Source: a virus
IMG/VR virus record: IMGVR_UViG_3300037847_004035
Coordinates: 3,712-42,719 of that record
DNA: 39,008 bases
Direction: 5' to 3' (one strand)
This document shows, piece after piece, positions 10,025 to 38,959 of the stretch. A model generated the notes under the pieces. The model saw only the letters and a program-made list of their open reading frames with translations. It was not told the DNA's origin and made no database searches. How positions within the stretch are numbered: position 1 is the first letter of the stretch; the number at the start of each line of letters is the position of its first letter. The translations under genes were made by a program, and so were the position numbers.

Positions 10025-10028
10025 TAAA

Positions 10029-19364: not shown

Positions 19365-19387
19365 ATAAATAAATTAAATAATAAACT

Positions 19388-19765: not shown

Positions 19766-19773
19766 TTATTAAT

Positions 19774-21216
19774 ATGAAAATAATAAAAAAGTTTGATATA
19801 GATACTGGTAATATACCTTCTAGTGGAGAACGTAGAAGATTTTCTGTATTAGGTGATAATAATTGTGTATTTAAACTAGAAATAACAAACGAAGATAGTC
19901 CTAAAAAATATTATAATTTTTCTACAGAAGAATTTACAACAACAAAATCATCTTTAAGAGCTGTGATAAGTGGTGGTATATATTCTGGTGATATATTATT
20001 CCCTAGTGTTTCTGATGATGATCATTACGATATATATTTATGGGCGGATTCAGTAAATACAAAACATGCTAATTACAGAGAGGTTAGGTTTACAGATGGA
20101 AGCATAGATATAAACTCTTCATCTGGTTCTAGTTCTAAATTATTACAAAAAATAATAAGACAATATACCTCTAAAACATTTACAGTGACAGCAGCAGCAC
20201 CAACATTAAGTGATAGTGGAGAAGCTTTTGAAGGTGCTACTATAGTGGCTGATACAATATCTGTAGAAACAAATAATAGGTCTTATAAAAAAGATTTTAC
20301 AGTCACAGTTACAGCTGATACAAATCATGTTTTTGCAATAAATAGACAACCAGTTCCATCTGATGCATATGCATCGACTTCAAGAATTATTGGGGCGTTT
20401 TCAGCTATACCAGGTGAAGATGTTAGTAGTTCTACATATTATAGATGGGCAATAAAATCTACAAGTACTCTTCATGGGTTAGCTAATGGTATGCAAGTGC
20501 TTGGAACTAATGTTACTGCTAATACTGAAATAGCTGATTACGACGAAACATTAAGCTATGATGTTGAGGCAAGAGAATATGGGTCAGTTCCTTCTGTACC
20601 ATCTTTAGCTGAAACTGTTGAAGAATCTGTTAGTGTTACTGAAACAGTAGAACATGTTGACGGTATAGATACTTTAGGATTTACACCTACTTTAACAAAT
20701 GGATCTATTAGTAAACAACTAGGAAATGTAACATTTAACAATCAACAAGCAGCTGCTTTAGCTGATGATACTGTTGTTTTTTATGCTTATGGTCCAAATC
20801 AAATAAAAAAATTAACTGGTAATAGTATTAAGTTAAGTAATTTAAAAGTTGAATTAACAGATGTAACTACAACAATAAACGATGCGAGTGCCACTGGCTC
20901 TGCATCTTTAAATGATTTTGATGTAACTAGTGTTGCTGGTATAATGGACGATGTAAGTGTTGTAACAGGTGTAAATATAAATGCTTCAGCTAAAAATCCA
21001 TTAGTAACAACAATATCTTCTAATAATTTAACATTAACGCCCGGTGGTCACTATGTTCAAAATGGACAAACATTAGTGTTTAAAAATGCTAGTACTATAG
21101 CAACTATAACTGGTACAGTTGAAATTACAAACATTGGTGATTTTAGAGCTGTTGATGGTAGTTCTGTAGCCCCAAGTATAACATTTAATTTAGAAAAATT
21201 CTTAAAAGCAGTTTAA
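19774..21216 (+). CDS. Fibre-type virion protein, 480 aa
   Basis: A beta-rich protein with high Thr/Ser/Val/Asn and no Cys-repeat or enzyme motif. The N-terminal part (FDIDTGNIPSSGERRRFSVL, then FKLEIT) looks like a virion-attachment beta domain of a kind common in marine phage structural proteins. The middle carries long Thr/Ser stretches that suggest a repetitive stalk, and the end returns to short strands. It fits a tail fibre or similar appendage. No signal peptide, so it should be particle-borne, unlike the exported proteins near it. Confidence 0.6.
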   Translation: MKIIKKFDIDTGNIPSSGERRRFSVLGDNNCVFKLEITNEDSPKKYYNFSTEEFTTTKSSLRAVISGGIYSGDILFPSVSDDDHYDIYLWADSVNTKHANYREVRFTDGSIDINSSSGSSSKLLQKIIRQYTSKTFTVTAAAPTLSDSGEAFEGATIVADTISVETNNRSYKKDFTVTVTADTNHVFAINRQPVPSDAYASTSRIIGAFSAIPGEDVSSSTYYRWAIKSTSTLHGLANGMQVLGTNVTANTEIADYDETLSYDVEAREYGSVPSVPSLAETVEESVSVTETVEHVDGIDTLGFTPTLTNGSISKQLGNVTFNNQQAAALADDTVVFYAYGPNQIKKLTGNSIKLSNLKVELTDVTTTINDASATGSASLNDFDVTSVAGIMDDVSVVTGVNINASAKNPLVTTISSNNLTLTPGGHYVQNGQTLVFKNASTIATITGTVEITNIGDFRAVDGSSVAPSITFNLEKFLKAV

Positions 21217-21266
21217 AGTAAAAAAAACACATAAACTGTGACTATATAATAATAAAACTATGAATA

Positions 21267-22271
21267 ATGAATCAATTTAAACCAACACCTTTTACACGTA
21301 AATCCTTTAAAGAAGAATTAAAAGCAGCTGAAAAAGCCGCAAACTCTCCTTCTCCTGTTAAGTTTGATTGGGAGGGAGCTGGTGGTGGAGCGGCGGTTGG
21401 AGCTGGTACTGGTGCAGCTATAGGATCTGCAATACCTGTAATTGGTACTATAGCAGGTGGTATAATAGGTGGTGCTATTGGTTTTTTTAGCGGTGGTAAA
21501 GAAGAAGAAAAAATAGATCCAAAATATCAAGAGCAAATAACTCAAGCTTTAACTGATTTTAAAGATTTAAAAACAGACAATTTATATGCTGGAGCTCAAA
21601 ATTTAATGGGTGGAGTATCTTTTGATTTGCAAAACAGAGAATTTAAAAACCAATTTCAAGATGCGAGAAATGTTTATGCTGATCTTGGTGAATTACGTAT
21701 GGAAAATGCATTTGAAAATATGACTGTAGACCAAAGAGCCGCACAATTTCAAAGAGATATGTTTTCTCAACAACAAGCAAATATAATGCAGGGTTTACAA
21801 GGTTCTGCGGGTGGTAGTGGTATTGCTGGTTTAGCTCAAGCTATGGCGCAGCAAGGTCAATTACAAGCACAACAAGCTGCTGCAGATATTGGTAGACAAG
21901 AAAGAGAAAATCAATTAAGAGCTAGAGGTGCGGACATGGATATTCAAAGAATGCAGGCGCAAAGAAGAGAGTTGATTGCTAGAGGGGGAATGGAAACACA
22001 AATGGCTAGAATGTCTGGTGCTCAAGCAGCTGACCAAATGTTATCACAAAGAGAGCAGGCTATAGCTACTGGTCAGTTTCAAGCGGCACAAGCTAGAGCA
22101 CAAGGAGCTATGCAGGCACAAGCTATGAGATTACAAGGCGAAACAGATGCTAGAAACTTAGAGTATCAAAAAGCACAGGGTATGCTTAGTTATTATTCTG
22201 GACAACAAGAAGGTGAGTATGCTAGAATTGAAGCTGATAAATCTTGGTTACAAAGAACCTTTGGCTTTTAA
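21267..22271 (+). CDS. Ejection-type internal virion protein, 334 aa
   Basis: Residues about 35-75 form a glycine-zipper membrane segment (alternating Gly/Ala with AIPVIGTIAGGIIGGAIGFF). Residues about 110-320 are a long Gln/Ala/Arg-rich helical coil (MAQQGQLQAQQAAADIGRQ). A membrane-insertable glycine zipper plus a long Gln-rich helix is the typical profile of podovirus internal (ejection) proteins that leave the head and line a channel through the envelope. It lies just before two larger probable ejection proteins. Confidence 0.65.
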   Translation: MNQFKPTPFTRKSFKEELKAAEKAANSPSPVKFDWEGAGGGAAVGAGTGAAIGSAIPVIGTIAGGIIGGAIGFFSGGKEEEKIDPKYQEQITQALTDFKDLKTDNLYAGAQNLMGGVSFDLQNREFKNQFQDARNVYADLGELRMENAFENMTVDQRAAQFQRDMFSQQQANIMQGLQGSAGGSGIAGLAQAMAQQGQLQAQQAAADIGRQERENQLRARGADMDIQRMQAQRRELIARGGMETQMARMSGAQAADQMLSQREQAIATGQFQAAQARAQGAMQAQAMRLQGETDARNLEYQKAQGMLSYYSGQQEGEYARIEADKSWLQRTFGF

Positions 22272-22288
22272 ATATTAAAAAATAAATT

Positions 22289-23785
22289 ATGGTAATAGAT
22301 CCAAACTTAATGTATAAAGCTGGTCGTTCCAGCAGAATGAGACCTAGATCTGGTGCAGCAAGACGAGCTGACTTGTATGATAAAATATTAGGATACGTTG
22401 GTCAAATAGCTGTTAACAGATATTCACAACTTAGTGAAGAACTTGGTGAGTTTAAACAAAAATGGAGAAACGCTAGTTCGACTGTAAATGGTTTAGTAAA
22501 CGATGTTGGAGCGGCAATGAATCCAGAGTTTAGAAGCGCTTTAAAAGACTGGAGAAAAGAATATATAAAAGGTAAAAGAAAATCTAAATTTGGATTATCA
22601 GAAAAGAAAAGAGAAGAGGGTAATTATATAGCTAATAATGCATATAATAAAATTAAAAGACTACATGCTCAATTTCAAGATATATCTGGTAAAGTTGCTA
22701 AGTATGAAAACCAAGTTGCGTTACAGGCAAATGAAAAACCTCCTAACTATGCTGGTCAAGGATTTAATTCTGGTGATAGTGATGATAGAATTATATTAGC
22801 AACAGAACTTGCTAATGGTAAACTATGGCAAAGCATGGGTGTTAATCGTGAAACTGCTGATATAGTATATTTACAACAAACGCAAAATGAAAGCGGTAAA
22901 AATATTACAACTAAAATACCATATACAAATTTAGACTGGCCTACAGATGAAGACGATTCTCTTCAAGGCGTTCAAACAGGTTATGTTGATGAAGCGATTA
23001 AAAATGGGAATAAAGGAAGAATTTGGGACGAGCTTTATGGTAAGCTTCAGTATGATAAAATAAAAGCAAGTGTACAGTCAAAGGATAATGGTGGTATTGA
23101 TGCGCAGAGAAGTTTTTTCTTTGGGGGAACTGTTATGCCAGGTGTTAATGAAAAATTAGAAACTAGTTCATTAGCCTATATAACACTAAAAAATGCTAAG
23201 CACCCACAAACTGGTGAACCATTGAATTTACAAGAAGGAACTCCAGAATGGAGAGCTGCATTACAATCTTTAAAAACAGATCTTACGTTTGCCGAGGGTA
23301 GCGATGAAACTAAAATGATAATAGACTACATATACAGTGCCACTGAAAGATACCACAAAAATTACTATAATCAATGGGAATTAAAAAACCAAAAAAAGCG
23401 TGATAAAAAGACTGATAAAGAAACTACAATTGCTGGTACAATAGAGTTAGGTATGAGTAGGTTTAATCGTGGTGAAAAACCAAGAAAATTAATTGCTAGA
23501 AGAGAAGATGTTGTTACTAAAAACAGACAAATTACAAACTCTAAAAAAGGAGATATTATACAAGGTTGGGAAGGTCCAAAAACTTATCGCTACAAAAACA
23601 TGGGTAATGGTAGATTTATGTACCAAGAATATAATGAGGATTCAGGTAAATTTGAAAATGTTGAAAATACAACTGGTATGACGCCAGGTCCAGTTAGAGT
23701 ACCACAAGGCCAAGGGTATTATACTATAGATGATGTAAAAATGGATCTTATTCCACAAGTTTTACAAACTGGTTTGCCAGGTTAA
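22289..23785 (+). CDS. Probable ejection/internal virion protein, 498 aa
   Basis: A largely helical, Lys/Asn-rich protein with no motif I recognise and no signal peptide. The N-terminal 150 residues are basic helices; the middle is mixed; the C-terminal 90 residues have a short beta region (TYRYKNMGNGRFMYQEY). It stands between the glycine-zipper protein and the 3136-aa polyvalent protein with only 17 bases on each side, which suggests all three act together in DNA ejection. Confidence 0.55.
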   Translation: MVIDPNLMYKAGRSSRMRPRSGAARRADLYDKILGYVGQIAVNRYSQLSEELGEFKQKWRNASSTVNGLVNDVGAAMNPEFRSALKDWRKEYIKGKRKSKFGLSEKKREEGNYIANNAYNKIKRLHAQFQDISGKVAKYENQVALQANEKPPNYAGQGFNSGDSDDRIILATELANGKLWQSMGVNRETADIVYLQQTQNESGKNITTKIPYTNLDWPTDEDDSLQGVQTGYVDEAIKNGNKGRIWDELYGKLQYDKIKASVQSKDNGGIDAQRSFFFGGTVMPGVNEKLETSSLAYITLKNAKHPQTGEPLNLQEGTPEWRAALQSLKTDLTFAEGSDETKMIIDYIYSATERYHKNYYNQWELKNQKKRDKKTDKETTIAGTIELGMSRFNRGEKPRKLIARREDVVTKNRQITNSKKGDIIQGWEGPKTYRYKNMGNGRFMYQEYNEDSGKFENVENTTGMTPGPVRVPQGQGYYTIDDVKMDLIPQVLQTGLPG

Positions 23786-23802
23786 TAAAAAAAATATAAT
23801 AA

Positions 23803-26800
23803 ATGTCAGATTACACTTATAATGGAGAGACATACTCTCAAGATGATATTAAGTCAAAAGCAGATAGCTTAGGTCTTTCTGTAAATCAATACTTAAATAA
23901 ATACAAAGAAATAAAGCCTGTTAGTACGGGAAAGACAACCGACTCTACACCTGTGGACCCAAATGTGGAGTCAAAAAATATGGGGTCCACTTCGGGAGAT
24001 GGTTCATCGGAATCACCAAGTTGGGGTGATAAAATATCAAATACATTTAATGCTTATATAAATCCATTCACACCAATGGCTGAGCGACCTTTATATGCCG
24101 CTGGTATTGATGTTGGTGAAGTAAAAGAAAAATCTAGAAAAAAATCTAAAGGTTATGAATCTGATAAGTTAAATTTTGAAAAAGAATTAGATAAAGCTTT
24201 TTCAGATGGAAAGTTATTTGGTAAAATGATTGAAAATCCAAATAAAATTACTTTACAAGAAAGGCAAGTTGAGGCCGGAGATTTTGGTTCACCTGAGGAG
24301 TACCTTTTAGATATTGTTAAAAAAGAACTAGGCGGGATGGGCTGGTTTGGAGATAGAAATGTTGATGCTAAAGGACAACCTTTATATAAAAATTTAACAA
24401 ATAATGATATAGAAAAAATTATTGAAGATAAGTTTTATGCAAAGTTGGATTTTGAGAAAAATAACAAAGCAAACAATATAGCTTTAAATACTAAGGAAAA
24501 TATTGAAAAACAAGGAATCAATATTCGCCAGTGGCAAGATGATAATAGAAAAATTTTTATAAGTGCATACTCTGGTGTTGATAGACAAATAGCTGATCTT
24601 GTAGAAGCGATAAACCATGGTGGTTTAGACGAGGTTAAGAGAAAGGAAGCTTACAAAAAACTTACGCAATTAAAAAGTAGGGAAAAACGCTCTATGCTTT
24701 ATGATCTTAATACCGGTCAGTTAACTACAAATAAAACTGAAAATACAGTAGATTTAGGTGTTGAGGAAACTCAGGAAAAGTATAATGATATTTTAGGTAG
24801 ACTTAAACCAGAAGATCAGTTAGATTATTTAAGAAATGAATTTGAAAGATCAGCATTGACATTATCTGGTCATAATCAAAAACTAGATGAAGTAAAACAG
24901 TGGTCTATACTTAAATCTGGTTATGAAATAGCAGATGATCCAACTGGTGGTAATAGACGTATAGTTAAAAGTAGCTTAAGAGATTTAATGATGGATACAG
25001 AATTTGCTAATTTTTCACCTGTACCAGTAAATGAATTAAGAAGAAAAAAAAATGAGACAGATTCTCAGTATGAAAAAAGAAAAAAAGATTTAGTTGCGGC
25101 TTGGAAAACTGATATTGAAGTTTTAAAACAAGATGATTTAGAATATACTAGAGAGTTTGAATCACTTAAAGGTATGTATTTATTAAACGATGGTATTGTT
25201 GATATAGAAAAACCTGAATATACATATTTAGCATTACCAAAAAACATGGCTGCAGTAAAACAATCTGCAGCTGCTTTAATAAAACCATGGACTAGCGAGT
25301 ATCACGCTGACAAGTTGTTAGGTTCTACTAATAGAGTTATAATACAAGAAAAAGGAGATATATATGATAATTTAGGTATTAAAAAAACAAAAAGCGATGA
25401 AAAACAACTAAAAGTATCAATAGCGGAAGGAGTTAACGATGGTGTTCTTGGTATGAACAAAATGCTTTTTGAATTTTCTGGTATTAATAAAGGTTTGGCT
25501 ATAACTGGTGTTACTAAAAGATTTAACGCTTTAATGAAAGCTTTAGACGGTGGTAAATGGGTTAAAAATGGAAAAACTTTTACTGATGCAGCGGTAAAAG
25601 CTAGAGCCGTTCAAAAATATCCTAAAATAAAAGCAAAAGATGCGTTAAAAAAATATGTAGATGATTGGGGTTTGAGACCAGTGCAATCTTGGCAAAATAG
25701 ATTTTACAGTGTCGGTGCTGCTGGTTTAATGGAAGCTGGTAAATTTGAGTTCTTCACTCAATTCGATATAACTAAAGGCGAATTTAAACCTGAGGCCGGC
25801 GAACAATTTGGTTGGGCAACTGGTTTTGGTTTTGGTGCTATGGGTAGAGTTATAACACCATTATCTCCATTTTTACAAAAAAAAGGTATATTAACAGATT
25901 TTGATAGATCTATAAAACTTGGAAGTAGAGAGGCTAGAATAGGTTTAAATAGTAGAAAACTATTTGAAACATTTGTAACGCAGCCGGCTAGTTTTGTTGT
26001 TGGTTCTGAAGGTGGTGAATTAATGAACGTTATAGTTGATGATATGTTAGGTAACAAGCAGCTTGGTAATTACATGGATCATCACTACGGTGATTACGGT
26101 GAAGTTGGTAAAAGATTAATTACAAATTATTTTACTGGATTAGGTTTAGGTGTAGGACATTTTAAAGGTTTTACAGATTTTAAATCTAAAGCCGCTTTGA
26201 GAAGAACTAGAGATACAGCGTTAGATAAAATGAGAGAATCTGGTAGATTAGCTGAGCTAACAGAAGCTGAGCAAAATAATATATTTAGCGAAAAGTCTCA
26301 AAATAAATTACACAAAAATTTATCTGATAAAAACCTACAAGAATTTTACAAACATTATGAAGTGTTTGATGGTATGGAGGGTAGACTTCAACAGCTTTAC
26401 AGAGCTGAAGGTTATATGAACCCATCAAGAGCAGATGAACTGGTAAAACAAGATCATAAACAATTTTTAGCTGAAGAAAAAGCCGCTGGAAGAGAGGTTA
26501 GAATTGAAGTTGTAAACAATAAAAAACTTAAATTCCAACAACAAGGTATTGATCCAAATAAAAAAGCTGAAATATCTAAAGATCCTAAAAGCAAAATAAC
26601 AACTATTAGATACAACGCTGAGTTATACAGCCCAGACGTAATGCCACACGAAGTGCACCATTATTATACAGAAGAGTTATTTAGTCAAGACGCTGTGTTT
26701 AAAGGTGAGTTCATGAATACTTTAAATAGTATTGGTAACAAAATAAAATTAAAAAGATTAGTAACAGAGCAAGAGGCTAAAGAACTTGGTAATGAAAGTT

Positions 26801-29800
26801 TAAAAGGAAAAAAGATGACTCTTTCGCAGTCTATTAAGTTAAAAAAGTTTGATATAACAAGCCCTACAAATCAACAAAGAATACAGCAATGGGAATTATT
26901 TGCTCATATCGCAGAGCAGATAGGTAATAAAAACAATTACTTTGATATAAAAAATTCTGGTGAAGGAGGTGGATTTGTTGATCTTAGAAACTTACTATCT
27001 ACACTGGGTAAAACTACTGGTAAAAAATTAAACTTAAGTAAAGAGAAACATGTTGTTGAGTGGTTTTCTAAGTACGGTGAAAATGTAAAAAAAGGAAAAA
27101 GTGTTGTTGACATGTTTTCTGAATTAGAGAGTATTATTGATTTTGAAGCCACCGCAATACGTAAAGCAGAAAGATTAGCTGAGGGTAGAACCGGTATAGA
27201 TACATATAGTTCAGAGCGTTTAGATTTGGGTGATGGTCGTAGAATAAACAACCCTAAAGAATTAGCTAAAGAAGTACAAAAAGAATACGAAGCAAAAATT
27301 GCTGAGGGTAAAGATAAAATGGCTGCCTATAAAGAAATAGCAGACCCAAGCCCTCGTTCTGCTAATTACGATCCTAATTACCCTATACTAGGTAAAAAAA
27401 TAGGACCTATGCTTGATGTCGCGTTGTCTTCTTGGAATAGATCTGTTGGTGATCAATTTAGAATAAATTTAGGTAATAGAGGTTGGGATTCTAAAAGATC
27501 TAGTATAGCTATGGATTTTATAGCTAGTAAAAATAGAGGTTTAGAAGATATTTTTAACAAGTATACAAAAGACAAAGGTCAACTAATGACTTGGGTTACT
27601 GGTCAGTTAAGAAGACGTATGCAAGAAACTATCGAGCGTGGCGTTGGTAAAGAAACAAATATAAGAGAAGCGAAAGTAGGTGACTTTGTTGAATTTGAAA
27701 GAGTGTTTAGCGATGTTGATGTTGCTGGTGGTAAGATAGATAAAAGTTTTGACAACGCAAATCCAGCTATTAAACCTAAAGGTATACAGTTAAAAAATCA
27801 TGATTTTACTTTTGGTGAAAGAAAAAGAACTATAGACCCAGAATCTATTAATAATATAGAGAAAACTTCTAAAGAAACTTTTAATAATACTAAGGTAGAG
27901 GATTTTACTTATCAAAAAATTGCTGAAAAAATATTACAAGTTACTACCCCAGAAATGACAAATCTTTTTGGTGGTAAAGAAGGTATGAAACCAAAAGAGT
28001 TATATGAAACTCAAATAAAATTTATTAAAGAAAACGCGCCTGTACTATATGATGCTATGCCTTTAACTTCTCACCCGAAGTTTTATGAAAACACAATGAT
28101 AGGTAAAACTATTCTTAATAGATTTTATAAAAATACTGGTAAAAAATATATAACAGATGAATTATCTGTTGAAGAAGCTGCTAGAACAAACGCTAGAACT
28201 TTTAAATACGAAAAGCTTCCAGCTACAAAAGAACGTATACAAGAGTTAGTTGATTTAATGCAATCTGGTAGAGATGCTGGGACTAATAATAAAAAAGTTA
28301 ATATATTAAAAGAACACGTTGGTAAGGTATTGGGTAATCAAGTTTTTAGAGATTTATTAAATAACCCTGAGTTTAAAAAAGGTTTAGACACAGAAGGTCT
28401 TAAAAAACTGGAGTCTGTAAAAGCTGAGTTGGCAATGCGTAAGCTTCGAGGAGCTGTTCCTGAAAAATTATTTTCTGAAGATTTAGACGTGATGAATCGT
28501 TTTATTAAAGATGTTAAAAGTTTTAATTACGCTAAGGAATTATTTCCAGGTTTTCATGTTAGAAATCTAATAGAAAACACTAAAGAATATAGGCAATTAC
28601 TTGAAAAAACAGGTGGAATTGATTCTTTCTTGAAAGATATGGGTTATGAGCTTAAAGGTATTAATCTTAAAACTTTTCAGCAATACGCTAGAGCACAAAG
28701 AGATCTTGGTACTCTTAATACAAAGGTTGTTGAGCCAAAAATATTTAAAAATTGGTCTGACTTAAAGTTTCAAGCTGAAATACAAAATGTTTTTAGTAAT
28801 GAAGTTTTAAGAAATCAATTAAAAATTGGAGAACAAGGTTGGTATAAAAACTGGAACAATGTTAAAGAATTTGATAGTTTAGTAAATTGGTTAAAAGATA
28901 ATACTTTTAGTGAAATTTTTACCTCTCAAATGATTAAAAAATCGGTTGGTATGGGGTTGGGTAAAGTTAAGTTTGCTACAGAAAAAGAAGGTGTTTTTAA
29001 AACAAGAAATAATCCTTATTGGGAAAATTTAATAAAAGATATTAAAACCTCAAAAGAAAAAGCACCTAAATGGGTTAATCAATACAAAACTACAGATAAC
29101 GGTAAGTTTAAAGAAGCTGTTAATAATGAGTTAGCAAAAGCAGATTTAAGCACTCCTGAGAAAAAACAAAAATTTGCTAAATATATTACTAAAAAGTATT
29201 TAACAAGAAAAGGTGTTAGTTATGAAAATACTATAAAAGCTAATCAAAAAATGCAAGAGTATATTTATGGTAAATTGTTTGATTACTACCAGAACGCTCC
29301 AAACAAGGCTATTGCCCTTAATAATATATTTAGATTATTACAAATGCAAACTAGTATTGGTAATGGATTTACGAGATCTTTAGCAACGCATGATGCTATA
29401 ACAATAAGACATGTTGAAAACTGGGGAAAGGGAGAAGGTTTAGAAAAAACACATAGTGAGCATGAGTTTCAAACTTTTGGATTTAATGCTAATTTTATGT
29501 TAAATATGATTAAAAACTCTGGAAATAAAACTGCGTTTTTAAATAACTTTAAACCTTTATCTAAAATATTTAGACAAAGTATAATAGATAGAAGTGTTCA
29601 AAAAAAATACGATAGCCCAGAGTATGGTGGTACAACTAGTTTTGATTTTAAATTTACAACCGAATCGGGTAAATATCCTTGGTTAAGAGAGCGAGTTATA
29701 GCTGAGACAACATTAGATTTAAAAACAGGTAAAACATATGATCAGTTATTACCAGACGTAATTATTGGTGGAAAAACAGTTAGACTGCTTGAAGCTAGAA

Positions 29801-32800
29801 AAAATCAAATAATTAAACAACTTGGGTTTGACGCAAAAAAAATGTCTCCTACAGAAAAGGTTTTAGCTATAAAAACTATAGACAATGCTTTAGCTTTAGG
29901 CGTAAAGAGAAATAAAGAAAGAAGAGGTGGTAGTTTTTGGGATTTTGATGATACGTTAGCTACAACAAAATCTGGAGTTAGAGCTAGAATACCAAATACA
30001 GATGGTTTACCAAAACCAAGTAGAAAAGTTATATTTTTAGCAGGTGGTGCTGGTAGTGGTAAATCTAATGTGGTTAAAAAACTTGGGTTAGAAAAAGATG
30101 GGTTTAAAATAGTAAACCAAGATATATCATTAGAATGGTTAAAAAAGAATAATGGTTTGCCAGAAAACATGAATGATCTTACTAAAGAGCAAAGAAGTGT
30201 TTTAGGTAAATTACAGCATCAGGCTAGGGGAATAGCTAAAAGAAAAATGATGAAGTTCAAGGGTAATGCAGATGGCGTGGTTGTTGATGGCACGGGTGGT
30301 TCTATGAAAGCCATGGAAAAACTTGTAACTGAATTTAAAGAAAAAGGTTATGATGTTAGTATGTTATTTGTTGAAACTTCTTTAAAAACAGCATTAGAAA
30401 GAAATAGAGCAAGAAAAGAAAGATCGTTATTAGATAAAATAGTAGAAAAAAATCATGAATCAGTTCAAGGAAATAAACCAGGTTTTAAAACAATGTTTGG
30501 CGAAAGATTTATGGAGGTTAAAACTGATAACTTAAAAATGGAAGATGCAATGCCTAAAGAGCTTGTTGATAAAATGAATGATTTTGTTAGAGGTTATGAA
30601 AAAATTAGATTAGATGCTGAACAATTTGCTAGCGAAGGACAAAATATATTAGATAAAGGTGGTAAATTTGATTTTTCAGAATTCAACGTTGTTACTGGTG
30701 GACAAAGAGGGCCTTTCTTTGAAAAAGCTATGGCTAGAGCTAAAAAATTTGGTACTAAAGATCAATTTATTATAACCGCTAGACCACCAGAATCTGCCAA
30801 ACCAATATATGAATTTTTAAAATCTCAAGGATTAGAAATACCATTAGAAAATATTACTGGGCTAGGTAATAGTACTGCTGAGGCAAAAGCGTTATATATG
30901 CTTAGAAAATTTGAACAAGGATATAATGATATGTATTTTGCTGATGATGCATTGCAAAATGTAAAAGCTGTTCGAGATGTATTAAGTCAATTAGATATTA
31001 AATATAAGGTTCAACAAGCTTTAGCTAGTGAAAATTTAGATATTAGTATTAACAAAATAATGGAACACTCATTAAATATTGATGCTGGTAAAAAATTTAG
31101 TAAAGCAGAGGCTAAAGTTAGAGGTAAAGATATTAAAGGTAGAAGGTTCTTTTTATCAAATAGTGCTTCTGATTTAGAGCTTCTTATAGAACCTTTATAT
31201 GGTAAAGGTGGCAAAGGTATAAAGAATAAAAAATGGTTTGATAAAGAGCTTATAGAACCGTTTGAAAGAGGTATAGATAGTTACAATACAGCTAGACAAA
31301 CCGCTAAAAACGATTATATGTCTCTTCGTAAAAACAATAAAGATATAGTTAAAATATTACCTAAAGAAGTAGAGGGCACTAGCTTTACTCACGATATGGC
31401 AATGAGAGTTTATCTTTGGAATAAAGTTGGTTATAAAATTCCTGATTTAGCTAAAACAACAGAAGCTAAACTTGTTGAGTATGTACAAAATAATCCGAAA
31501 TTAAAAGCATATGCCGAGGCTTTTGCTAGAATAACAAAGCAAGATAAAGGATTAAAAGAGCCTAGCACTGAATGGTGGGCGGAAACTATGGCTGGTGAAG
31601 TTACAAATATAGATAGAGGTGTTAGTAGAAAACAATATCTTCAAGAATTTATAGATATTAAAAACGAAATATTTTCTGAAGTAAACCTAAACAAAATGGA
31701 ATCTAAGTTAGGAACTGACTGGAGAGAAAATATTACAGACATGCTTGATCGTATGGAAACTGGTAGAACAAGATCTTTAAAGTTAGATAAAGGTAGTTCA
31801 ATGATGATGAATTATTTAAACGGTGGTGTTGGTACTATTATGAATTTTAATACTAGATCAGCTGCTCTACAAACTATATCTACTCTTAACTTTCTTAACA
31901 TGAGAGAAAATAATCCAATTGCCGCGGCGAAAGCAATGGGTAACGTACCACAGTTTTCAAAAGATTTTTTAAAAATTATGAATTCTGACATGTTGAAACA
32001 AAGAAGAGATGGTTTATCAATAAATGTAACTGAAGCTGAAATAGCATCTGCAGCCGCTTCTTCTAAAAACCCTATACAATCAATAATTTCTAAAGTTTTA
32101 AAGGTTGGTTATACGCCTACTAAACTTGCGGATAGTTTTGCAATATCATTTGGTGGTGCAACTTATTATCGTAATAGAATTAAAATGTATGAAAAGCAAG
32201 GTTTATCTACAAAAGAAGCAGAAGGAAAAGCATGGACTGATTTTCAAAAGTTATCTGAAAGAACACAACAATCATCTAGACCAGATTTATTATCTAAACA
32301 ACAAACATCACTAGCTGGTAGAATTATATTACCTTTCGCAAACACACCTATGCAGATGAACAGAAGAGGTATGAAAGATATACTTGATATATCTAAAGGT
32401 AGATATAAAAACAATGTTGAGTTAGCAGAAAAAATGGGTAGAATAACATATTATATGGGTGCTCAAGTAGCTTTATTTGCTGGGTTACAATCTGCTTTAT
32501 TTGCGATGATGTTGAACGATGAAGACGTTTCTGATGAGAAGATAATGAAAACAAAAGAATATACTTTAAACACTATTAGTGATTCGTTTTTAAGAGGTAT
32601 GGGTATATCTGGTGCTGTTGCTTCTGGTTTTAAAAATGCAACTATTGCGTATATGAAACAAAGCGAAAAAGGTTTTAGAGCCGATTATAGTGAAGTTGGT
32701 GAAGCTTTATTAAATATATCACCACCAATTGGTTCTAAATTTGGTAGATTAGATGCTGCTGGAGAAAGAATAAAATGGGCTAAAATTAAAAAACAAAAAC

Positions 32801-33213
32801 CTGAATTTAAACTTGGTAATCCTTATTTAGAAGCAGGGTTATTAACAGTAGAATCTATTACTAATGCACCTGTTTATTCACCATATCAAAATGCTATTAA
32901 CATTCAACATGCTCTAAGTAATGATTATGAAAACTGGCAAAGGGCTCATATGATTGGTGGTTATACGCCATACAATGTTGGTATTGAAACTAAAACAAAA
33001 GTAGCTAAAACAAAGCTAGGACCTAAAGAAAAATTACTTAAACTTAAGAAAAATGAACAGGTTGACATGTTGTTAGAATTAGGTTTACCAAGATACAAAG
33101 TAAATAGATTAAAATTAGAAAAAGATAGGGTAGAAAAAATTATGGAACTACAAAATAAAAAGAAAAAGAAAACACGAAAATCTCTTTTTAATTACGACTT
33201 AAACATTCAATAA
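23803..33213 (+). CDS. Giant polyvalent ejection protein, 3136 aa
   Basis: One uninterrupted frame of 9.4 kb. Visible parts: a short N-terminal module (YNGETYSQDDIK); a zincin metallopeptidase motif HEVHH (H949, E950, H953) with a possible third ligand at E1031 or E1038; a WVTGQLRRRM helix (from W1264) of the type seen in phage polyvalent proteins; a HAD phosphatase (D2047/D2049, T2325, K2362, D2381/D2382) interrupted by a P-loop kinase (GGAGSGKS, K2087); and a C-terminal region with SSRPDLLS, ANTPMQ (2846-2851) and a hydrophobic stretch 2883-2904. Polyvalent proteins are thought to be injected with DNA to counter host defence or alter host metabolism. Here peptidase, phosphatase and kinase activities are predictions. 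Confidence 0.75.
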   Translation: MSDYTYNGETYSQDDIKSKADSLGLSVNQYLNKYKEIKPVSTGKTTDSTPVDPNVESKNMGSTSGDGSSESPSWGDKISNTFNAYINPFTPMAERPLYAAGIDVGEVKEKSRKKSKGYESDKLNFEKELDKAFSDGKLFGKMIENPNKITLQERQVEAGDFGSPEEYLLDIVKKELGGMGWFGDRNVDAKGQPLYKNLTNNDIEKIIEDKFYAKLDFEKNNKANNIALNTKENIEKQGINIRQWQDDNRKIFISAYSGVDRQIADLVEAINHGGLDEVKRKEAYKKLTQLKSREKRSMLYDLNTGQLTTNKTENTVDLGVEETQEKYNDILGRLKPEDQLDYLRNEFERSALTLSGHNQKLDEVKQWSILKSGYEIADDPTGGNRRIVKSSLRDLMMDTEFANFSPVPVNELRRKKNETDSQYEKRKKDLVAAWKTDIEVLKQDDLEYTREFESLKGMYLLNDGIVDIEKPEYTYLALPKNMAAVKQSAAALIKPWTSEYHADKLLGSTNRVIIQEKGDIYDNLGIKKTKSDEKQLKVSIAEGVNDGVLGMNKMLFEFSGINKGLAITGVTKRFNALMKALDGGKWVKNGKTFTDAAVKARAVQKYPKIKAKDALKKYVDDWGLRPVQSWQNRFYSVGAAGLMEAGKFEFFTQFDITKGEFKPEAGEQFGWATGFGFGAMGRVITPLSPFLQKKGILTDFDRSIKLGSREARIGLNSRKLFETFVTQPASFVVGSEGGELMNVIVDDMLGNKQLGNYMDHHYGDYGEVGKRLITNYFTGLGLGVGHFKGFTDFKSKAALRRTRDTALDKMRESGRLAELTEAEQNNIFSEKSQNKLHKNLSDKNLQEFYKHYEVFDGMEGRLQQLYRAEGYMNPSRADELVKQDHKQFLAEEKAAGREVRIEVVNNKKLKFQQQGIDPNKKAEISKDPKSKITTIRYNAELYSPDVMPHEVHHYYTEELFSQDAVFKGEFMNTLNSIGNKIKLKRLVTEQEAKELGNESLKGKKMTLSQSIKLKKFDITSPTNQQRIQQWELFAHIAEQIGNKNNYFDIKNSGEGGGFVDLRNLLSTLGKTTGKKLNLSKEKHVVEWFSKYGENVKKGKSVVDMFSELESIIDFEATAIRKAERLAEGRTGIDTYSSERLDLGDGRRINNPKELAKEVQKEYEAKIAEGKDKMAAYKEIADPSPRSANYDPNYPILGKKIGPMLDVALSSWNRSVGDQFRINLGNRGWDSKRSSIAMDFIASKNRGLEDIFNKYTKDKGQLMTWVTGQLRRRMQETIERGVGKETNIREAKVGDFVEFERVFSDVDVAGGKIDKSFDNANPAIKPKGIQLKNHDFTFGERKRTIDPESINNIEKTSKETFNNTKVEDFTYQKIAEKILQVTTPEMTNLFGGKEGMKPKELYETQIKFIKENAPVLYDAMPLTSHPKFYENTMIGKTILNRFYKNTGKKYITDELSVEEAARTNARTFKYEKLPATKERIQELVDLMQSGRDAGTNNKKVNILKEHVGKVLGNQVFRDLLNNPEFKKGLDTEGLKKLESVKAELAMRKLRGAVPEKLFSEDLDVMNRFIKDVKSFNYAKELFPGFHVRNLIENTKEYRQLLEKTGGIDSFLKDMGYELKGINLKTFQQYARAQRDLGTLNTKVVEPKIFKNWSDLKFQAEIQNVFSNEVLRNQLKIGEQGWYKNWNNVKEFDSLVNWLKDNTFSEIFTSQMIKKSVGMGLGKVKFATEKEGVFKTRNNPYWENLIKDIKTSKEKAPKWVNQYKTTDNGKFKEAVNNELAKADLSTPEKKQKFAKYITKKYLTRKGVSYENTIKANQKMQEYIYGKLFDYYQNAPNKAIALNNIFRLLQMQTSIGNGFTRSLATHDAITIRHVENWGKGEGLEKTHSEHEFQTFGFNANFMLNMIKNSGNKTAFLNNFKPLSKIFRQSIIDRSVQKKYDSPEYGGTTSFDFKFTTESGKYPWLRERVIAETTLDLKTGKTYDQLLPDVIIGGKTVRLLEARKNQIIKQLGFDAKKMSPTEKVLAIKTIDNALALGVKRNKERRGGSFWDFDDTLATTKSGVRARIPNTDGLPKPSRKVIFLAGGAGSGKSNVVKKLGLEKDGFKIVNQDISLEWLKKNNGLPENMNDLTKEQRSVLGKLQHQARGIAKRKMMKFKGNADGVVVDGTGGSMKAMEKLVTEFKEKGYDVSMLFVETSLKTALERNRARKERSLLDKIVEKNHESVQGNKPGFKTMFGERFMEVKTDNLKMEDAMPKELVDKMNDFVRGYEKIRLDAEQFASEGQNILDKGGKFDFSEFNVVTGGQRGPFFEKAMARAKKFGTKDQFIITARPPESAKPIYEFLKSQGLEIPLENITGLGNSTAEAKALYMLRKFEQGYNDMYFADDALQNVKAVRDVLSQLDIKYKVQQALASENLDISINKIMEHSLNIDAGKKFSKAEAKVRGKDIKGRRFFLSNSASDLELLIEPLYGKGGKGIKNKKWFDKELIEPFERGIDSYNTARQTAKNDYMSLRKNNKDIVKILPKEVEGTSFTHDMAMRVYLWNKVGYKIPDLAKTTEAKLVEYVQNNPKLKAYAEAFARITKQDKGLKEPSTEWWAETMAGEVTNIDRGVSRKQYLQEFIDIKNEIFSEVNLNKMESKLGTDWRENITDMLDRMETGRTRSLKLDKGSSMMMNYLNGGVGTIMNFNTRSAALQTISTLNFLNMRENNPIAAAKAMGNVPQFSKDFLKIMNSDMLKQRRDGLSINVTEAEIASAAASSKNPIQSIISKVLKVGYTPTKLADSFAISFGGATYYRNRIKMYEKQGLSTKEAEGKAWTDFQKLSERTQQSSRPDLLSKQQTSLAGRIILPFANTPMQMNRRGMKDILDISKGRYKNNVELAEKMGRITYYMGAQVALFAGLQSALFAMMLNDEDVSDEKIMKTKEYTLNTISDSFLRGMGISGAVASGFKNATIAYMKQSEKGFRADYSEVGEALLNISPPIGSKFGRLDAAGERIKWAKIKKQKPEFKLGNPYLEAGLLTVESITNAPVYSPYQNAINIQHALSNDYENWQRAHMIGGYTPYNVGIETKTKVAKTKLGPKEKLLKLKKNEQVDMLLELGLPRYKVNRLKLEKDRVEKIMELQNKKKKKTRKSLFNYDLNIQ

Positions 33214-33232
33214 AATAAGTGATTATATAAAA

Positions 33233-34330
33233 ATGGCAAGAAGACTTATAATACTACTAACAATGTTTTTAATAGCTTGTTCAGCTCCTAAAAAATGTTG
33301 TTCGCAAGAAATAAATATAGACGTTAAAAAACTTTTAAAGTTTTCTACGTTTTATGCTGCTGTAAATGGTGGTACATCATTATCTGATGTAGATGTGTTT
33401 TCTGTAGACAATGGTTTATCTACAAGCACTATATCAACTCCTTATGATTATAATTTTACTATTGGGCTTCGTAAAATAGCTAGGTTTGGTTACGAAAATA
33501 AAGCACAAACATTTTATGATGGTACAGAGTCTAATTACAGTGATGCTGCTACAATAGGTAAAGTAAAAGGTATAGAGTACTTATTTGAAGTAGATTACAA
33601 GAGACAGGAAGGTATAGATTATATGGATCAACATCATTTTATACGTTATAGCTCTGATGATGGTTGTCCTAGTGGTTTATGTGTAAATTATTTTGCTTTA
33701 AAATTAGAATATTTACAAGACGGCTTTGCTGATGTAGAATATTTTGAAGCATCGGAAAGATATAGACATCGTAAAGGTAAAAATTTATCTTGGAATGTTG
33801 GGCTTGCTCATAGACTAGCAGAACCATATGGTTATAATCCATTAGATGAATGGATGTTATCTAATGGTAATTTACATTACACATATTTAGCGTTGCAAGA
33901 GGGTTACACTGTAGATGTGTATAGCAACGAATATTATAATCCAGCTGGAGAATTAGTTGCTACCAGCGCTGAGGTTTGGGAAGCTGTGGTTATACCACAA
34001 GTACTAGCGGATTACACTGAAAAGAAAAGAAACGAATTAAGTAGAATTATACAACATTCTATAGTTGTAGGATTTGATTATTATAAATACTCTAAAAAAA
34101 CATGGTTACACGTATGGGGTAACTTGATGCCTTGGCATTATGATGATGGTGATGAATTTTCTTACCACAACTTTATAGAAGACGATCAGTGGTATGATTA
34201 TTCTGGTGGTTTGATTTATGGAATAAAAGTAAATAAACAATTAGGCTATTTTGTAGAAGGCAAATATAACAAATACTGGAATAGAGAATGGTACGATTTT
34301 AAATTAGGATTAAATTATACAATTTTTTAA
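33233..34330 (+). CDS. Outer-membrane-type exported protein, 365 aa
   Basis: The N-terminus has a signal with a lipobox (FLIAC, Cys16), so it may be a lipoprotein. Alternatively it may be cut at S24|Q25, leaving Gln first. The rest is rich in Tyr/Trp/Asp with alternating strands and ends in a terminal Phe (LGLNYTIF), as outer-membrane beta-barrels do. Motifs such as FYAAVNGGTSLSDVDVFSV and KYNKYWNREWYDF fit a protein family I believe recurs in uncultured marine phages. It may alter the host outer membrane, block superinfection, or help release. It follows the giant ejection gene. Confidence 0.6.
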   Translation: MARRLIILLTMFLIACSAPKKCCSQEINIDVKKLLKFSTFYAAVNGGTSLSDVDVFSVDNGLSTSTISTPYDYNFTIGLRKIARFGYENKAQTFYDGTESNYSDAATIGKVKGIEYLFEVDYKRQEGIDYMDQHHFIRYSSDDGCPSGLCVNYFALKLEYLQDGFADVEYFEASERYRHRKGKNLSWNVGLAHRLAEPYGYNPLDEWMLSNGNLHYTYLALQEGYTVDVYSNEYYNPAGELVATSAEVWEAVVIPQVLADYTEKKRNELSRIIQHSIVVGFDYYKYSKKTWLHVWGNLMPWHYDDGDEFSYHNFIEDDQWYDYSGGLIYGIKVNKQLGYFVEGKYNKYWNREWYDFKLGLNYTIF

Positions 34331-34333
34331 GAT

Positions 34334-34561
34334 ATGAGAAACAAACCGCTACCGGGAATGGTAAAACGTTCGCCGTTAAAAACTGGAAATATACCACTTG
34401 GACCAAGTGATGGTGACAATAGTGAAATATTAAGAAAATATGGTTGGGGTGGAAAAACAAGAGATGAAGTTAAAAAAACAATAAGATTTAACACCTCTAA
34501 TCAAACAGAAAAACAAAAGAAAAGAGATTTTTACAAAATATACGGAACAGCAAATAGATAA
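34334..34561 (+). CDS. Small hypothetical protein, 75 aa
   Basis: A basic, Asn/Lys/Arg-rich protein with no signal peptide or membrane segment. The N-terminal part is Pro/Gly-rich (MRNKPLPGMVKRSPLKTG). I do not recognise it. It is tightly placed, three bases after the outer-membrane protein gene and two bases before the membrane protein gene, which supports its being real. Confidence 0.55.
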   Translation: MRNKPLPGMVKRSPLKTGNIPLGPSDGDNSEILRKYGWGGKTRDEVKKTIRFNTSNQTEKQKKRDFYKIYGTANR

Positions 34562-34563
34562 AC

Positions 34564-34845
34564 ATGGCAAAAGAATTAAATGAAGACACAGGTTTTGTGT
34601 TAAGTATAAAAACCTTAATAGCAATAGGTTTTGCAATGGCAACCCTAATAAGCATGTGGTTTATGTTACAAGCAGATATCGCTGAAGCAAAAGAACTACC
34701 AATTATTCCACCAGACGAAGTAACACGCATGGAATTTAATATGAAAGATCAAATGATTCGTAATACTATTTTGGACACACAAAAAGACGTACAAGAAATT
34801 AAAGCTTCTATAGAAAAAATAGAAGATAAATTATATAATAGATAA
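34564..34845 (+). CDS. Holin-like membrane protein, 93 aa
   Basis: A single hydrophobic segment at about residues 14-36 (LSIKTLIAIGFAMATLISMW) is followed by a coiled-coil-like acidic helix (VQEIKASIEKIEDKL). There are no Cys and no enzyme motif. Size and plan fit a phage holin, or a spanin-like or accessory inner-membrane protein. No endolysin gene is visible nearby, so the lysis role is an inference. Confidence 0.55.
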   Translation: MAKELNEDTGFVLSIKTLIAIGFAMATLISMWFMLQADIAEAKELPIIPPDEVTRMEFNMKDQMIRNTILDTQKDVQEIKASIEKIEDKLYNR

Positions 34846-34850
34846 ATTAA

Positions 34851-35204
34851 ATGAAAAAATCAGATATGTCAAAAGTGTTATATGTACTTTTAATGATATT
34901 AGTATTTGTAGCGTCACAAGCTTTTGGCCAAATAGAAGTTAGACAATTTAATGCTGAATGGAATAGCGCTAATAGTGTTAAGTGGTTTATGGATTTAAAA
35001 GATTGTAAAACTAAAGGTATAACAGATATAGCTAAAAATCCAGACGATGCAAAGTTGTACAAAATAGCAGTTGTACCTACTATTATAATATTTAAAGATG
35101 GAGAAGAAGTTGCTAGATTTCAAGCTGATTTATCGTTTAAAATGGTAGCAACAAGAGAAGAAGTACAAGAAGAAATACATAATCAATTAATGAGCGATTT
35201 TTAA
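34851..35204 (+). CDS. Exported thioredoxin-fold protein lacking CxxC, 117 aa
   Basis: A signal peptide (hydrophobic residues 9-22, likely cut G26|Q27 so the mature protein starts with Gln) precedes a thioredoxin fold: strand VRQFNAEW, and a cis-Pro strand AVVPTIIIFKDGEEV (VPT is the usual cis-Pro site). In the normal WCGPC position it has WNSAN, so it lacks the redox cysteines. It cannot act as a thioredoxin oxidoreductase; a binding or chaperone role in the periplasm is possible. A later ATG at 34866 would shorten the leader. Confidence 0.7.
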   Translation: MKKSDMSKVLYVLLMILVFVASQAFGQIEVRQFNAEWNSANSVKWFMDLKDCKTKGITDIAKNPDDAKLYKIAVVPTIIIFKDGEEVARFQADLSFKMVATREEVQEEIHNQLMSDF

Positions 35205-35205
35205 T

Positions 35206-35502
35206 ATGGCATATGATAATAGAAATGTAGGACCACTTAAAATAACAGAAGAAGCTTACGAAAGACGTAATAAAAAAATGCGTTCTAAGCATAAAAGTGA
35301 AACTGGTAGTACACTAGGTAGTAGACAAACAAAAGGTAAAAGTAACCGTAGGGTTAGTTTTGCTTGTAGGTTTGCTGGTATGAAAGGTAGTATGAAAAAC
35401 GCTAAAGGAGAACCAACGCCTTATGCTATGGCTTTAAAAAAATGGGGTTTTGGTAGTAGAGAAGCTGCTGCTAAATTTTGCAGGGCAAATAAAAAGTCTT
35501 AA
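35206..35502 (+). CDS. Basic protein with SFACRFAGM motif, 98 aa
   Basis: A Lys/Arg/Ser/Gly-rich protein. The central RRVSFACRFAGMKGSMKNAK stretch and the following ALKKWGFGSREAAAKFC are a pattern I associate with small proteins of marine phages, and loosely with the SYCARS-type protein at 16749-17039. Function is unknown; a capsid or DNA-associated role is plausible. It starts just after the thioredoxin-like gene. Confidence 0.55.
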   Translation: MAYDNRNVGPLKITEEAYERRNKKMRSKHKSETGSTLGSRQTKGKSNRRVSFACRFAGMKGSMKNAKGEPTPYAMALKKWGFGSREAAAKFCRANKKS

Positions 35503-35505
35503 ACA

Positions 35506-36027
35506 ATGTTTGAAGATTTTAATATATCAAAATTTAAAAAAAACAAACCACCAAGTGATAATTCTATTACGACTAAAAACGAAATAAAAGAATTAAAAAA
35601 AATACCTATTAGAAAAAAGTTTGTTAAAGAAATGGATGATGGAGAAAAAAACTTTACTAAAATAGTAGGTAAAGATCCTTTAGTAGGCAAATTAATATCA
35701 AAGTCTACACCTATAGTAATGAAGTTAAAAAAATATTTTAACAGACCAAGACCAGCTACATTAGCAAAAAAAATAGGTATAGAACTTAAAGATATAAAGT
35801 TAAAATCAATGGACTCACCAGCATACCCGTCTGGTCACGCCACACAAGCAACTTTATTATCTTTAGCTTTGTCTGATAAGTATCCAGAAAAAGAAGATAA
35901 ATTAAAAAAACTAGCTAGGGATATAATCCATAGCAGGTCTGTTGCTCATACGCATTTTAAATCAGATAATATTGCTGGTGAACAACTAGGAAAACAATTG
36001 TATAACTTAATAAAAAACAAAATATAA
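35506..36027 (+). CDS. PAP2-superfamily phosphatase, 173 aa
   Basis: All three PAP2/haloperoxidase signature motifs are present: K-x6-RP (K75 to R82-P83), PSGH (108-111) and SR-x5-H (S143, R144, H150). His150 would be the nucleophile and His111 the acid/base of class A acid and lipid phosphatases. At 173 residues it is short, with no membrane segment and no signal peptide, so it looks soluble and cytoplasmic, unlike most PAP2 lipid phosphatases. It may dephosphorylate nucleotides or lipids in the infected cell. Neighbours are small basic genes. Confidence 0.8.
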   Translation: MFEDFNISKFKKNKPPSDNSITTKNEIKELKKIPIRKKFVKEMDDGEKNFTKIVGKDPLVGKLISKSTPIVMKLKKYFNRPRPATLAKKIGIELKDIKLKSMDSPAYPSGHATQATLLSLALSDKYPEKEDKLKKLARDIIHSRSVAHTHFKSDNIAGEQLGKQLYNLIKNKI

Positions 36028-36394: not shown

Positions 36395-38959
36395 ATGAAA
36401 AAATTACTACTACTATTATTATTACCGATACTATCATTTAGTCAAAACTGTACACCTACATTAATAGCTACTGATACATGTATGTATGGTTACGCTAGAA
36501 CTTGGGTTGAATGGCAACCTCTAGATAGTGGCTGTGCTATAGCTAATGTTCATAGAGGTACTCCTTACAATACGTATAGTTGGGCTTGGAGTAATCAAAA
36601 TTTAACTAATTATTCTTTTTATAACAACTATAGTCCTGGTGATCCATTTGCTAGCTCAGCTGGTTTTTGGATGGTTCTAGAAATGAGTGATGGTAGTTTT
36701 ACCGATACAATATACGCTAATGAGTTTACTTGTATTGAAGGTTGTATGGATCCAGCATATGATAATTATAATCCATTAGCTAATATACCTGATGTTTGTT
36801 TAGCAATACCGCCACCTCAAGACGATTGTTTAGATACTACAAAAACATCTATAACTATTGAATTTACACCAGATACATATGCTAGTGAAACTTCTATGAG
36901 TATTGTAAATCAAGATAGTATTGTTTTATATAGTATACCACAAGGATTTTTCTATAGTGTAGGTACTGGTAATACATATACAAATACAATATGTGTACCG
37001 ATAGGTGATACAATAAGATTTATGATATATGATTCCTATGGAGATGGTATATGTGGTAGTTGTTTTGGCGGTGTAGATGGTAATGCTTTAATAACAGACG
37101 AATGTGGTGATACTATATATAGTTTAACACCTGGTGATAATTTAAACTTCGGTCATGGTGATACATCAGACGCGTTTGTAATGAAAGACTGTAGTTGGAT
37201 ACCTGTTGTTGGTTGTCCTAACCCAGGTTACTTAGAATTTAATCCAGCCGCAGATGTAATGAATCCAGCTCTTTGCGTTACACCAAGAGTTATCGGCTGT
37301 ATGGATACGACTATGTTTGATTTTAATCCTAATGCTAATACACCACTTATGGAAGATACCTGTGGTTATACGTTAGAATTAACAGATGGTGGTGGTGATG
37401 GTTGGTTAGGCGCTTACGTTGTGGTTAATCAACTAGGTAATTCTTACGGTCCTTATACTAACACAAGTTCTTTTGTAGAAACTATAAACTTAGAATTAAA
37501 ATCAAACCATCCAGTAACAATTAGAGCTTACTCACAAACAAGTTCTGATGCTACTATAGATCAAATAGGTTTTAAATTAATAAATCCAGAAGGTGTTGTT
37601 ATAGCTTCAGGTGGTACAAACCCTTGGAGTGATATGATAATGTTATTTCCAGATAAATATATAACATTACCTAACTGTCCTACTATATGTGAACCTTACA
37701 TATATGGTTGTATGGATAGCTTAGCTTACAACTATAATGATACAGCAAACACTGATAATGGAAGCTGTTATTACTCGCCAGGTTGTACTGATCCACAATA
37801 TTTAGAGTATTACACTCAAGGTTTTACTGCTGATTATAATAATGGAGATTGTCAAACATTAGCTATTTGGGGATGTACAGACTCTTTATCATTTAACTAT
37901 GATCCATTAGCTAATTTAGATAACGGTGGGTGTATACCGGTTATATTAGGTTGTATGAATGAATTAGCATTTAATTATAATCCTAATGCAAATACATCTG
38001 ATACATGTATACCCGTTATAGAAGGATGTACTTCACCTATTGCTTTAAATTATGATTCATTGGCGAACACAGATGATGGTAGTTGTATAGGTGTTGTATA
38101 TGGATGTATGGATCCAAGTGCTTTTAATTACGATCCTTTAGCTAACGTAGATGATTCTAGCTGTATAGATATAGTTTACGGATGTACAGATGCTACTATG
38201 TTTAATTATAATCCATTAGCTAATATTGATAATGGAAACTGTATACCGTTTGTTTACGGATGTATGGACTCAACAATGTTTAATTTTAATCCACTTGCAA
38301 ATGCACCAAGTAATCTTACCCCTTGTATACCTTTTATCTACGGTTGTACTGATCCTAGTATGCTTAACTATAACCCGGAAGCAAATACAGAAGATTTTAC
38401 TTGTATTCCTTATATTTATGGCTGTATGGATAGTACTGCTCTTAACTATGATTCAACAGCTAATACTGACAACGGTTCGTGTATTACTGTGGTTGAAGGA
38501 TGTATGGATCAAAATGCGCACAACTACAATATTAACGCTAACGTTCACGATTCCGTGGCATGTTTGTATGCGGCGAATTGTATAACAGGACCTGGTAATC
38601 CTTATTGGTTAAACGATCCTTGTTACGCTTGGGTAATTTCAGTAGATGATTATTGCTGTGAAAATGAATGGGACACTATATGTCAAGCTACATATGACTA
38701 TTGTGATGGTACTTGGACTGGAGATATACCAGCTAGAATATCTTTAGATGAATCATTAATAGTATATCCTAACCCAACTAGCGATAAAATTAATATAAAC
38801 AAAAACGTAGATATAAACGTATTTAATTATATCGGTGATATAATTATATCAAAAAAGAATATAAATGTCTTAGATGTCTCTAAATTAAGTTCTGGGATGT
38901 ATATGTTACAAATAAATTATAAAAATAAATCAATAACAAAACAAATAATTAAAAAGTAA
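36395..38959 (+). CDS. T9SS-secreted Cys-repeat protein, 854 aa
   Basis: A signal peptide (residues 4-16, likely cut S16|Q17, leaving Gln first) precedes a domain with WVEWQPLDSGCAIANVHRG that parallels the 656-aa protein. About 14 repeats of the form GC[MT]D...NYxP.AN.D.GSC follow from residue 116 to about 724. Next is a Cys module (DDYCCENEWDTICQ), then a 70-residue T9SS type A sorting domain: VYPNPTSDK (790-798), GMYMLQINY and ITKQIIKK at the end. By homology to Por_Secre_tail substrates, the host T9SS would export it and attach or release it at the outer surface. Likely an adhesin, shield or host-surface modifier. Confidence 0.85.
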   Translation: MKKLLLLLLLPILSFSQNCTPTLIATDTCMYGYARTWVEWQPLDSGCAIANVHRGTPYNTYSWAWSNQNLTNYSFYNNYSPGDPFASSAGFWMVLEMSDGSFTDTIYANEFTCIEGCMDPAYDNYNPLANIPDVCLAIPPPQDDCLDTTKTSITIEFTPDTYASETSMSIVNQDSIVLYSIPQGFFYSVGTGNTYTNTICVPIGDTIRFMIYDSYGDGICGSCFGGVDGNALITDECGDTIYSLTPGDNLNFGHGDTSDAFVMKDCSWIPVVGCPNPGYLEFNPAADVMNPALCVTPRVIGCMDTTMFDFNPNANTPLMEDTCGYTLELTDGGGDGWLGAYVVVNQLGNSYGPYTNTSSFVETINLELKSNHPVTIRAYSQTSSDATIDQIGFKLINPEGVVIASGGTNPWSDMIMLFPDKYITLPNCPTICEPYIYGCMDSLAYNYNDTANTDNGSCYYSPGCTDPQYLEYYTQGFTADYNNGDCQTLAIWGCTDSLSFNYDPLANLDNGGCIPVILGCMNELAFNYNPNANTSDTCIPVIEGCTSPIALNYDSLANTDDGSCIGVVYGCMDPSAFNYDPLANVDDSSCIDIVYGCTDATMFNYNPLANIDNGNCIPFVYGCMDSTMFNFNPLANAPSNLTPCIPFIYGCTDPSMLNYNPEANTEDFTCIPYIYGCMDSTALNYDSTANTDNGSCITVVEGCMDQNAHNYNINANVHDSVACLYAANCITGPGNPYWLNDPCYAWVISVDDYCCENEWDTICQATYDYCDGTWTGDIPARISLDESLIVYPNPTSDKININKNVDINVFNYIGDIIISKKNINVLDVSKLSSGMYMLQINYKNKSITKQIIKK

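Follow-up and report, generated by a model that had tools for sequence, protein, structure and literature searches.

Residues ~2041-2407 of a giant phage protein are a single HAD phosphatase, complete in its four motifs, in which an entire P-loop kinase is lodged between motifs I and II. The protein is encoded in the 39,008-nucleotide stretch of viral DNA analysed here (the window), and comparison with its relatives shows, at the level of sequence, that the loop holding the kinase (the flap loop of the HAD) is a site of both insertion and exchange, being empty in most of the relatives sampled and occupied in others by the kinase, by an ADP-ribosyltransferase (ART)-like domain or by another domain. 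In the window this HAD bears a Zeta/PNK-type kinase at the tip of its flap, and we regard it as probable that the loop serves as a cargo slot, open to exchange, in a polyvalent protein that is itself probably delivered by the virion.

One HAD phosphatase in two pieces

The features discussed, in window coordinates, are:

23803..33213, + strand: giant ORF of 3136 aa, a polyvalent-type phage protein (ORF translation; HAD-bearing relatives are alike)
26647..26661, + strand: HEVHH, a HExxH-type zincin motif, residues 949-953 (motif only)
29923..30006, + strand: first piece of the HAD, with strand 1, motif I DFDDT (D2047, D2049) and the first flap strand (motif conservation, AlphaFold, HMM)
29977..29994, + strand: flap hairpin strand 1, residues 2059-2064 (DSSP on the AlphaFold model, model residues 24-29)
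30022..30594, + strand: inserted P-loop kinase, residues 2074-2264 (Pfam AAA_33 / Zeta_toxin, conservation, fold)
30595..30612, + strand: flap hairpin strand 2, residues 2265-2270, where the HAD restarts (DSSP, model residues 230-235)
30595..31023, + strand: second piece of the HAD, with motifs II (T2325), III (K2362) and IV (D2381/D2382), to the last strand (HMM, invariant motifs)

The HAD-carrying ORFs of relatives are also giant (2400-3700 aa), and the presence of a kinase and a HAD within 3136 residues would class the protein as a multidomain phage polyvalent protein; the HEVHH signature contributes to this assignment by motif only, the Pfam scan of the giant ORF having returned no match in that region. 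The motif positions given in an earlier sequence-only reading all proved exact when rechecked. DFDDT starts at residue 2047 (nt 29941), GGAGSGKS at 2081 (nt 30043), VVVDGTGG at 2159 and RNRARKERS at 2200. The kinase thus displays a Walker A motif (2081-2088), the aspartate of an NxD motif (D2107), that of DGTG (D2162) and three lid arginines (R2200, R2204 and R2207), while the later HAD motifs lie in the contexts ITARP (T2325), AEAKA (K2362) and FADD (D2381/D2382).

A Pfam search with the whole giant protein found only the kinase and left the HAD undetected, the latter being both split and divergent. The kinase matches fall at residues 2072-2208, to AAA_33 (E-value 5e-10, 40.3 bits against a cut-off of 27) and to Zeta_toxin (5e-8, 33.1 bits against a cut-off of 22.3), and with its Walker A motif, catalytic aspartate, lid arginines and profile scores above cut-off the insert is a P-loop kinase. 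HMMs for the HAD pieces, built solely from uninterrupted relatives, match both flanks of the kinase, the motif-I part at 5e-10 and the remainder at 4e-64. The alignment columns of D2047, D2049, T2051, T2325, K2362, D2381 and D2382 are invariant across 65 aligned sequences, and these residues make up the DxDx(T/V), S/T, K and DD motifs of the HAD superfamily. Among the aligned kinase-nested sequences, the HAD residues D2047, D2049, T2325, K2362, D2381 and D2382 are retained in 46 of 46, as are K2087, D2162, R2200, R2204 and R2207 of the kinase, and D2107 is conserved in at least 97%.

A chance string of motifs is excluded, because the HMMs from uninterrupted HADs match both halves and the layout is common to 63 sequences. 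Assembly error or chimerism of the nested unit is likewise excluded, since the layout recurs in these 63 non-identical sequences with an insert of 197-202 aa. An intein or homing element is not favoured, as the insert sequences are recognisably kinase or ART-like and inspection by eye showed no junction residues of the intein type.

An AlphaFold2 model of residues 2036-2425, computed from an alignment of 65 sequences, gave one composite fold (pLDDT 92.4, pTM 0.83) in which HAD strand 1 and motif I are followed by the first flap strand (model residues 24-29), the kinase (~38-228), the second flap strand (230-235) and the rest of the HAD. The modelled Rossmannoid core, with a flap hairpin after strand 1, is of the HAD kind; the catalytic residues of HAD and kinase alike are intact, and in the prediction the two HAD pieces come together as one fold with the kinase between them. 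A C1 cap is a domain that interrupts the flap hairpin midway (PMC8069645), and in the model the kinase, at the tip of that beta-hairpin, occupies the position of a C1-type cap. The sequence-only reading had likewise seen a complete kinase in the cap position, and it had named two independent folds as the outcome that would speak against it; structure prediction returned instead one continuous HAD core, with the kinase between both flap strands.

In structure comparison the best match of the kinase part is Clostridium Pnkp, with a Z of 16.3 and an rmsd of 2.9 over 166-167 residues; seryl-tRNA(Sec) kinase, the Zeta toxin and T4 PNK are close to it as well. The comparison list for the nested model is dominated by kinases, as the kinase domain fills it, and no nearest HAD fold can be read from it. 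A Foldseek search with a model of a related HAD, in which the insert is weakly modelled, placed HAD phosphatases first (best E-value 1e-3, probability up to 1.0), and a search of the HAD sequence against the PDB matched nothing usable.

Occupants and history of the flap loop

Relatives were gathered from scans of viral contigs and of bacterial and archaeal genomes, with 80 of 521 HAD matches taken in one viral-contig scan, and the resulting counts of slot states are shaped by this search design and are not prevalences. The seed alignment of the scans (A1), which also served for one PDB search, contained three rows from which the kinase had been excised by hand, one of these three having a wrong N-terminus, and no conclusions are drawn from it. 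Six of the giant phage proteins (L103, L104, L105, L106, L107 and L109) lie on contigs assigned to MAGs of Woesearchaeota, Maricaulis and Aliivibrio; these contigs probably come from phages and were misbinned.

Among the matches listed there are 187 non-identical HADs with both pieces, of which 116 are uninterrupted, 63 carry the kinase insert (197-202 aa) and eight carry other inserts, of 131-184 aa, in the same loop as the kinase. Seven of these eight are ART-like and one (L228) is unassigned. The ART-like label is to be read with the scores behind it: the L011/L197 and L199 types match Pfam ART-PolyVal at E-values of 0.01-0.05, which do not reach the cut-off; the L200 insert is so called by eye from its YHGTS start alone; and the model of an ART-nested protein has a pLDDT of 67.6, a low confidence for the ART fold. 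The insert of L228 (about 6056-6501) is a domain of ~145 aa in the HAD slot with no Pfam family above cut-off. No HAD-only relative was found in annotated phage records.

Comparison of pairs shows that what the insert replaces is 'DGTKG', the tip of the hairpin, which has VLYTMP on one side and KLNAEEF on the other. The flanking DNA of L160 (filled) and L070 (empty) is 90.5% and 88% identical on the two sides, and between the flanks a kinase segment of ~618 bp stands against ~12 bp. Two further filled/empty pairs differ in the 'DGTKG' loop, L228/L229 with flanks 97% and 96% identical and L016/L012 with flanks 97% and 91% identical. The HAD loop may tolerate such cargo in that both its ends lie at the hairpin tip, where domains with close N- and C-termini would fit without breaking the HAD. 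These natural empty and filled pairs offer a test of how caps originate and of any control that a nested enzyme exerts over the domain around it. In the giant ORFs of many loci, L003, L110 and L173 among them, we also observed that the motif [KRQ][FY]S[KR] is ~4.5 times commoner than in shuffled sequences (244 versus 54 in 166 ORFs) and often falls at domain borders, for instance directly after the HAD; it may mark a linker or a site of cleavage.

Slot-state changes number 15 on the fast tree (180 HADs) and 14 on the careful one (71 HADs), counts that are blind to gain versus loss, and at least eight kinase-state changes on the careful tree are forced by well-supported branches. Placing all kinase-bearing HADs in one clade is rejected (AU p 3e-83), and with it a single insertion inherited by all of them on the HAD tree. 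It is possible that an existing insertion has spread by recombination in the HAD flanks, so that not every state change need be a new insertion. That a single permissive loop has been filled and emptied repeatedly would also be expected of a selfish or neutral insert in a dispensable HAD, kept because it is harmless; the catalytic residues of both domains, however, are invariant down to 40-60% identity, and we hold an idle insert of this sort to be highly improbable.

Among nested proteins, the identity of the HAD goes with that of the kinase (Spearman 0.78, against a permutation maximum of 0.10). There are clear exceptions, such as L175, whose kinase is ~90% identical to several others and whose HAD is only ~52% identical. 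Nested units therefore persist within clades and swap between clades, and the inheritance of kinase and HAD as a unit within clades could reflect functional coupling. One form of coupling would be a regulatory cap, in which the kinase closes over the HAD site, binding of ATP or substrate gates the phosphatase, and the HAD may undo the product of the kinase. The co-inheritance of nested pairs is in keeping with such a gate, as are the C1-cap position and a pTM (0.83) that suggests a defined mutual orientation in the model; empty slots and other inserts nevertheless imply a HAD independent of the kinase cap, some proteins have the kinase without the HAD, and we judge this arrangement quite unlikely.

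The kinase is autonomous, since it also occurs on its own, in tandem with a HAD and at a distance upstream of one. It stands by itself at the place of the HAD in L170, L173, L179 and L187, and in series after an intact HAD in L140; in L083 and L166 it follows a zincin-like motif and precedes an intact HAD by ~760-860 residues. Among isolated phages, HTVC008M and Melnitz have relatives of the kinase as separate proteins, and in Atu_ph07 the relative is part of a protein of 790 residues that lacks this HAD. Some phage contigs (L188, L161-L165 and L191) have two diverged members of the kinase family, within one ORF in L188 and otherwise in two neighbouring ORFs.

Phage context and candidate roles

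The terminase and major capsid protein of the window are distantly crAss-like, at 33% to Cellulophaga phage phi14:2 and ~30% to gut crAss-like phages. An 854-residue ORF at 36395-38959 ends in Por_Secre_tail (Pfam 8e-12), a domain that in Bacteroidota is the sorting signal for type IX secretion, and on account of this domain the host is probably a member of the Bacteroidota. The repeats of the same ORF also match L243/L244, the phage of L002, against which the window (compared at 23803-33213 and 4090-11534) is a mosaic: genes from ~17394 to 36024 are 84-98% identical, and the giant protein matches over residues 1-72 and 1942-3136 and is without a match over 73-1941. The two terminases are unalignable, though both belong to phrog_6681, and each major capsid protein is assigned to a PHROG of its own; the mosaic is either true recombination or a chimeric contig.

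Polyvalent proteins are described as giant multidomain phage proteins that combine enzymes, ART domains and a HExxH peptidase and undergo extensive domain shuffling (PMC5512222, main text), and crAss-like phages carry cargo proteins in their virions (PMC10172136). On these two grounds we infer that the giant protein, like other polyvalent proteins, would be produced late, enter the virion and reach the host along with the DNA; the position of its gene, downstream of the head genes and on the same strand, is only suggestive of virion packaging. The kinase could then be an autonomous cargo enzyme that phosphorylates a small molecule or macromolecule of the host early in infection. A bolder version, in which the flap loop is an effector-exchange slot, phages exchange whole enzymes (kinase, ART-like and others) in the active-site lid of a phosphatase that is injected, and this phosphatase acts as carrier and possibly as built-in control or antidote for its cargo, is conceivable yet doubtful.

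The sequence-only reading had taken the nesting to mean paired phosphorylation and dephosphorylation of one substrate, perhaps at RNA or DNA ends. Such a coupled enzyme, with both sites brought onto one substrate such as 5'-OH and 3'-phosphate ends, would accord with a kinase fold nearest to Clostridium Pnkp and close to T4 PNK, with the covariation of kinase and HAD, and with the counterparts in the kinase profile alignment of D35, R122 and R126 of T4 PNK. Furthermore, 21 of 23 HAD members match phrog_415 ('polynucleotide kinase'; best 1.6e-8), which keeps an end-healing reading alive. R38 of T4 PNK is the acceptor-phosphate arginine, and the corresponding position in the kinase profile is Leu, which argues against a canonical polynucleotide acceptor. 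RNA ligase PF09414 occurs in only three of 29 kinase-carrying contigs (which are fragmentary), and an RNA-repair operon is rejected on that count; a search for PF09511 gave no match in the contigs and none in the controls either, and so carries no weight. Pairing on one substrate is also at odds with kinase-less HADs (116 of 187 among the matches listed), HAD-less kinases and unrelated domains in the slot. We thus consider a coupled kinase-phosphatase unlikely; the pairing drawn from the nesting is not supported, and of the proposed RNA or DNA ends a weak case survives, in the Pnkp-like fold and the phrog_415 likeness, against the missing arginine and the scarce ligase.

Comparison with known systems

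T4 PNKP (PseT, 1ltq) and mammalian PNKP have in common with the protein described here a P-loop kinase and a HAD phosphatase in one chain, and the kinase fold, catalytic aspartate and lid arginines are shared. Their domains stand in series, whereas here HAD motifs I and II flank the kinase and the R38 position is Leu. The kinase domain of Clostridium thermocellum Pnkp (4gp7, 4jt2), the closest solved fold of the insert, is 17-18% identical to it; Pnkp is a kinase-phosphoesterase-ligase chain and contains no HAD. Zeta and PezT toxins (1gvn, 3q8x; Z 13.6-13.7) and AvrRxo1 (Z 12.6) are also similar in fold, the Zeta_toxin match being above cut-off, but these are single-purpose toxins with an antitoxin, and here the kinase is one domain of a giant phage protein.

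With the polyvalent proteins of Iyer et al. 2017 (PMC5512222) the protein shares its multidomain make-up and HExxH motif. The main text of that paper is without the terms 'phosphatase', 'P-loop kinase' and 'HAD superfamily' and describes no enzyme nested in the cap loop of another, and our literature search found no description of a HAD with an inserted kinase. The shuffling known for polyvalent proteins takes place between domains; here it occurs inside a catalytic domain, at the loop where HAD caps evolve, and this loop marks a place at which further phage effectors may be collected. C1-capped HAD phosphatases carry an inserted domain at the same place in the flap hairpin (PMC8069645), but ordinary caps are lids, whereas the insert here is predicted to be a complete second enzyme, and an exchangeable one.
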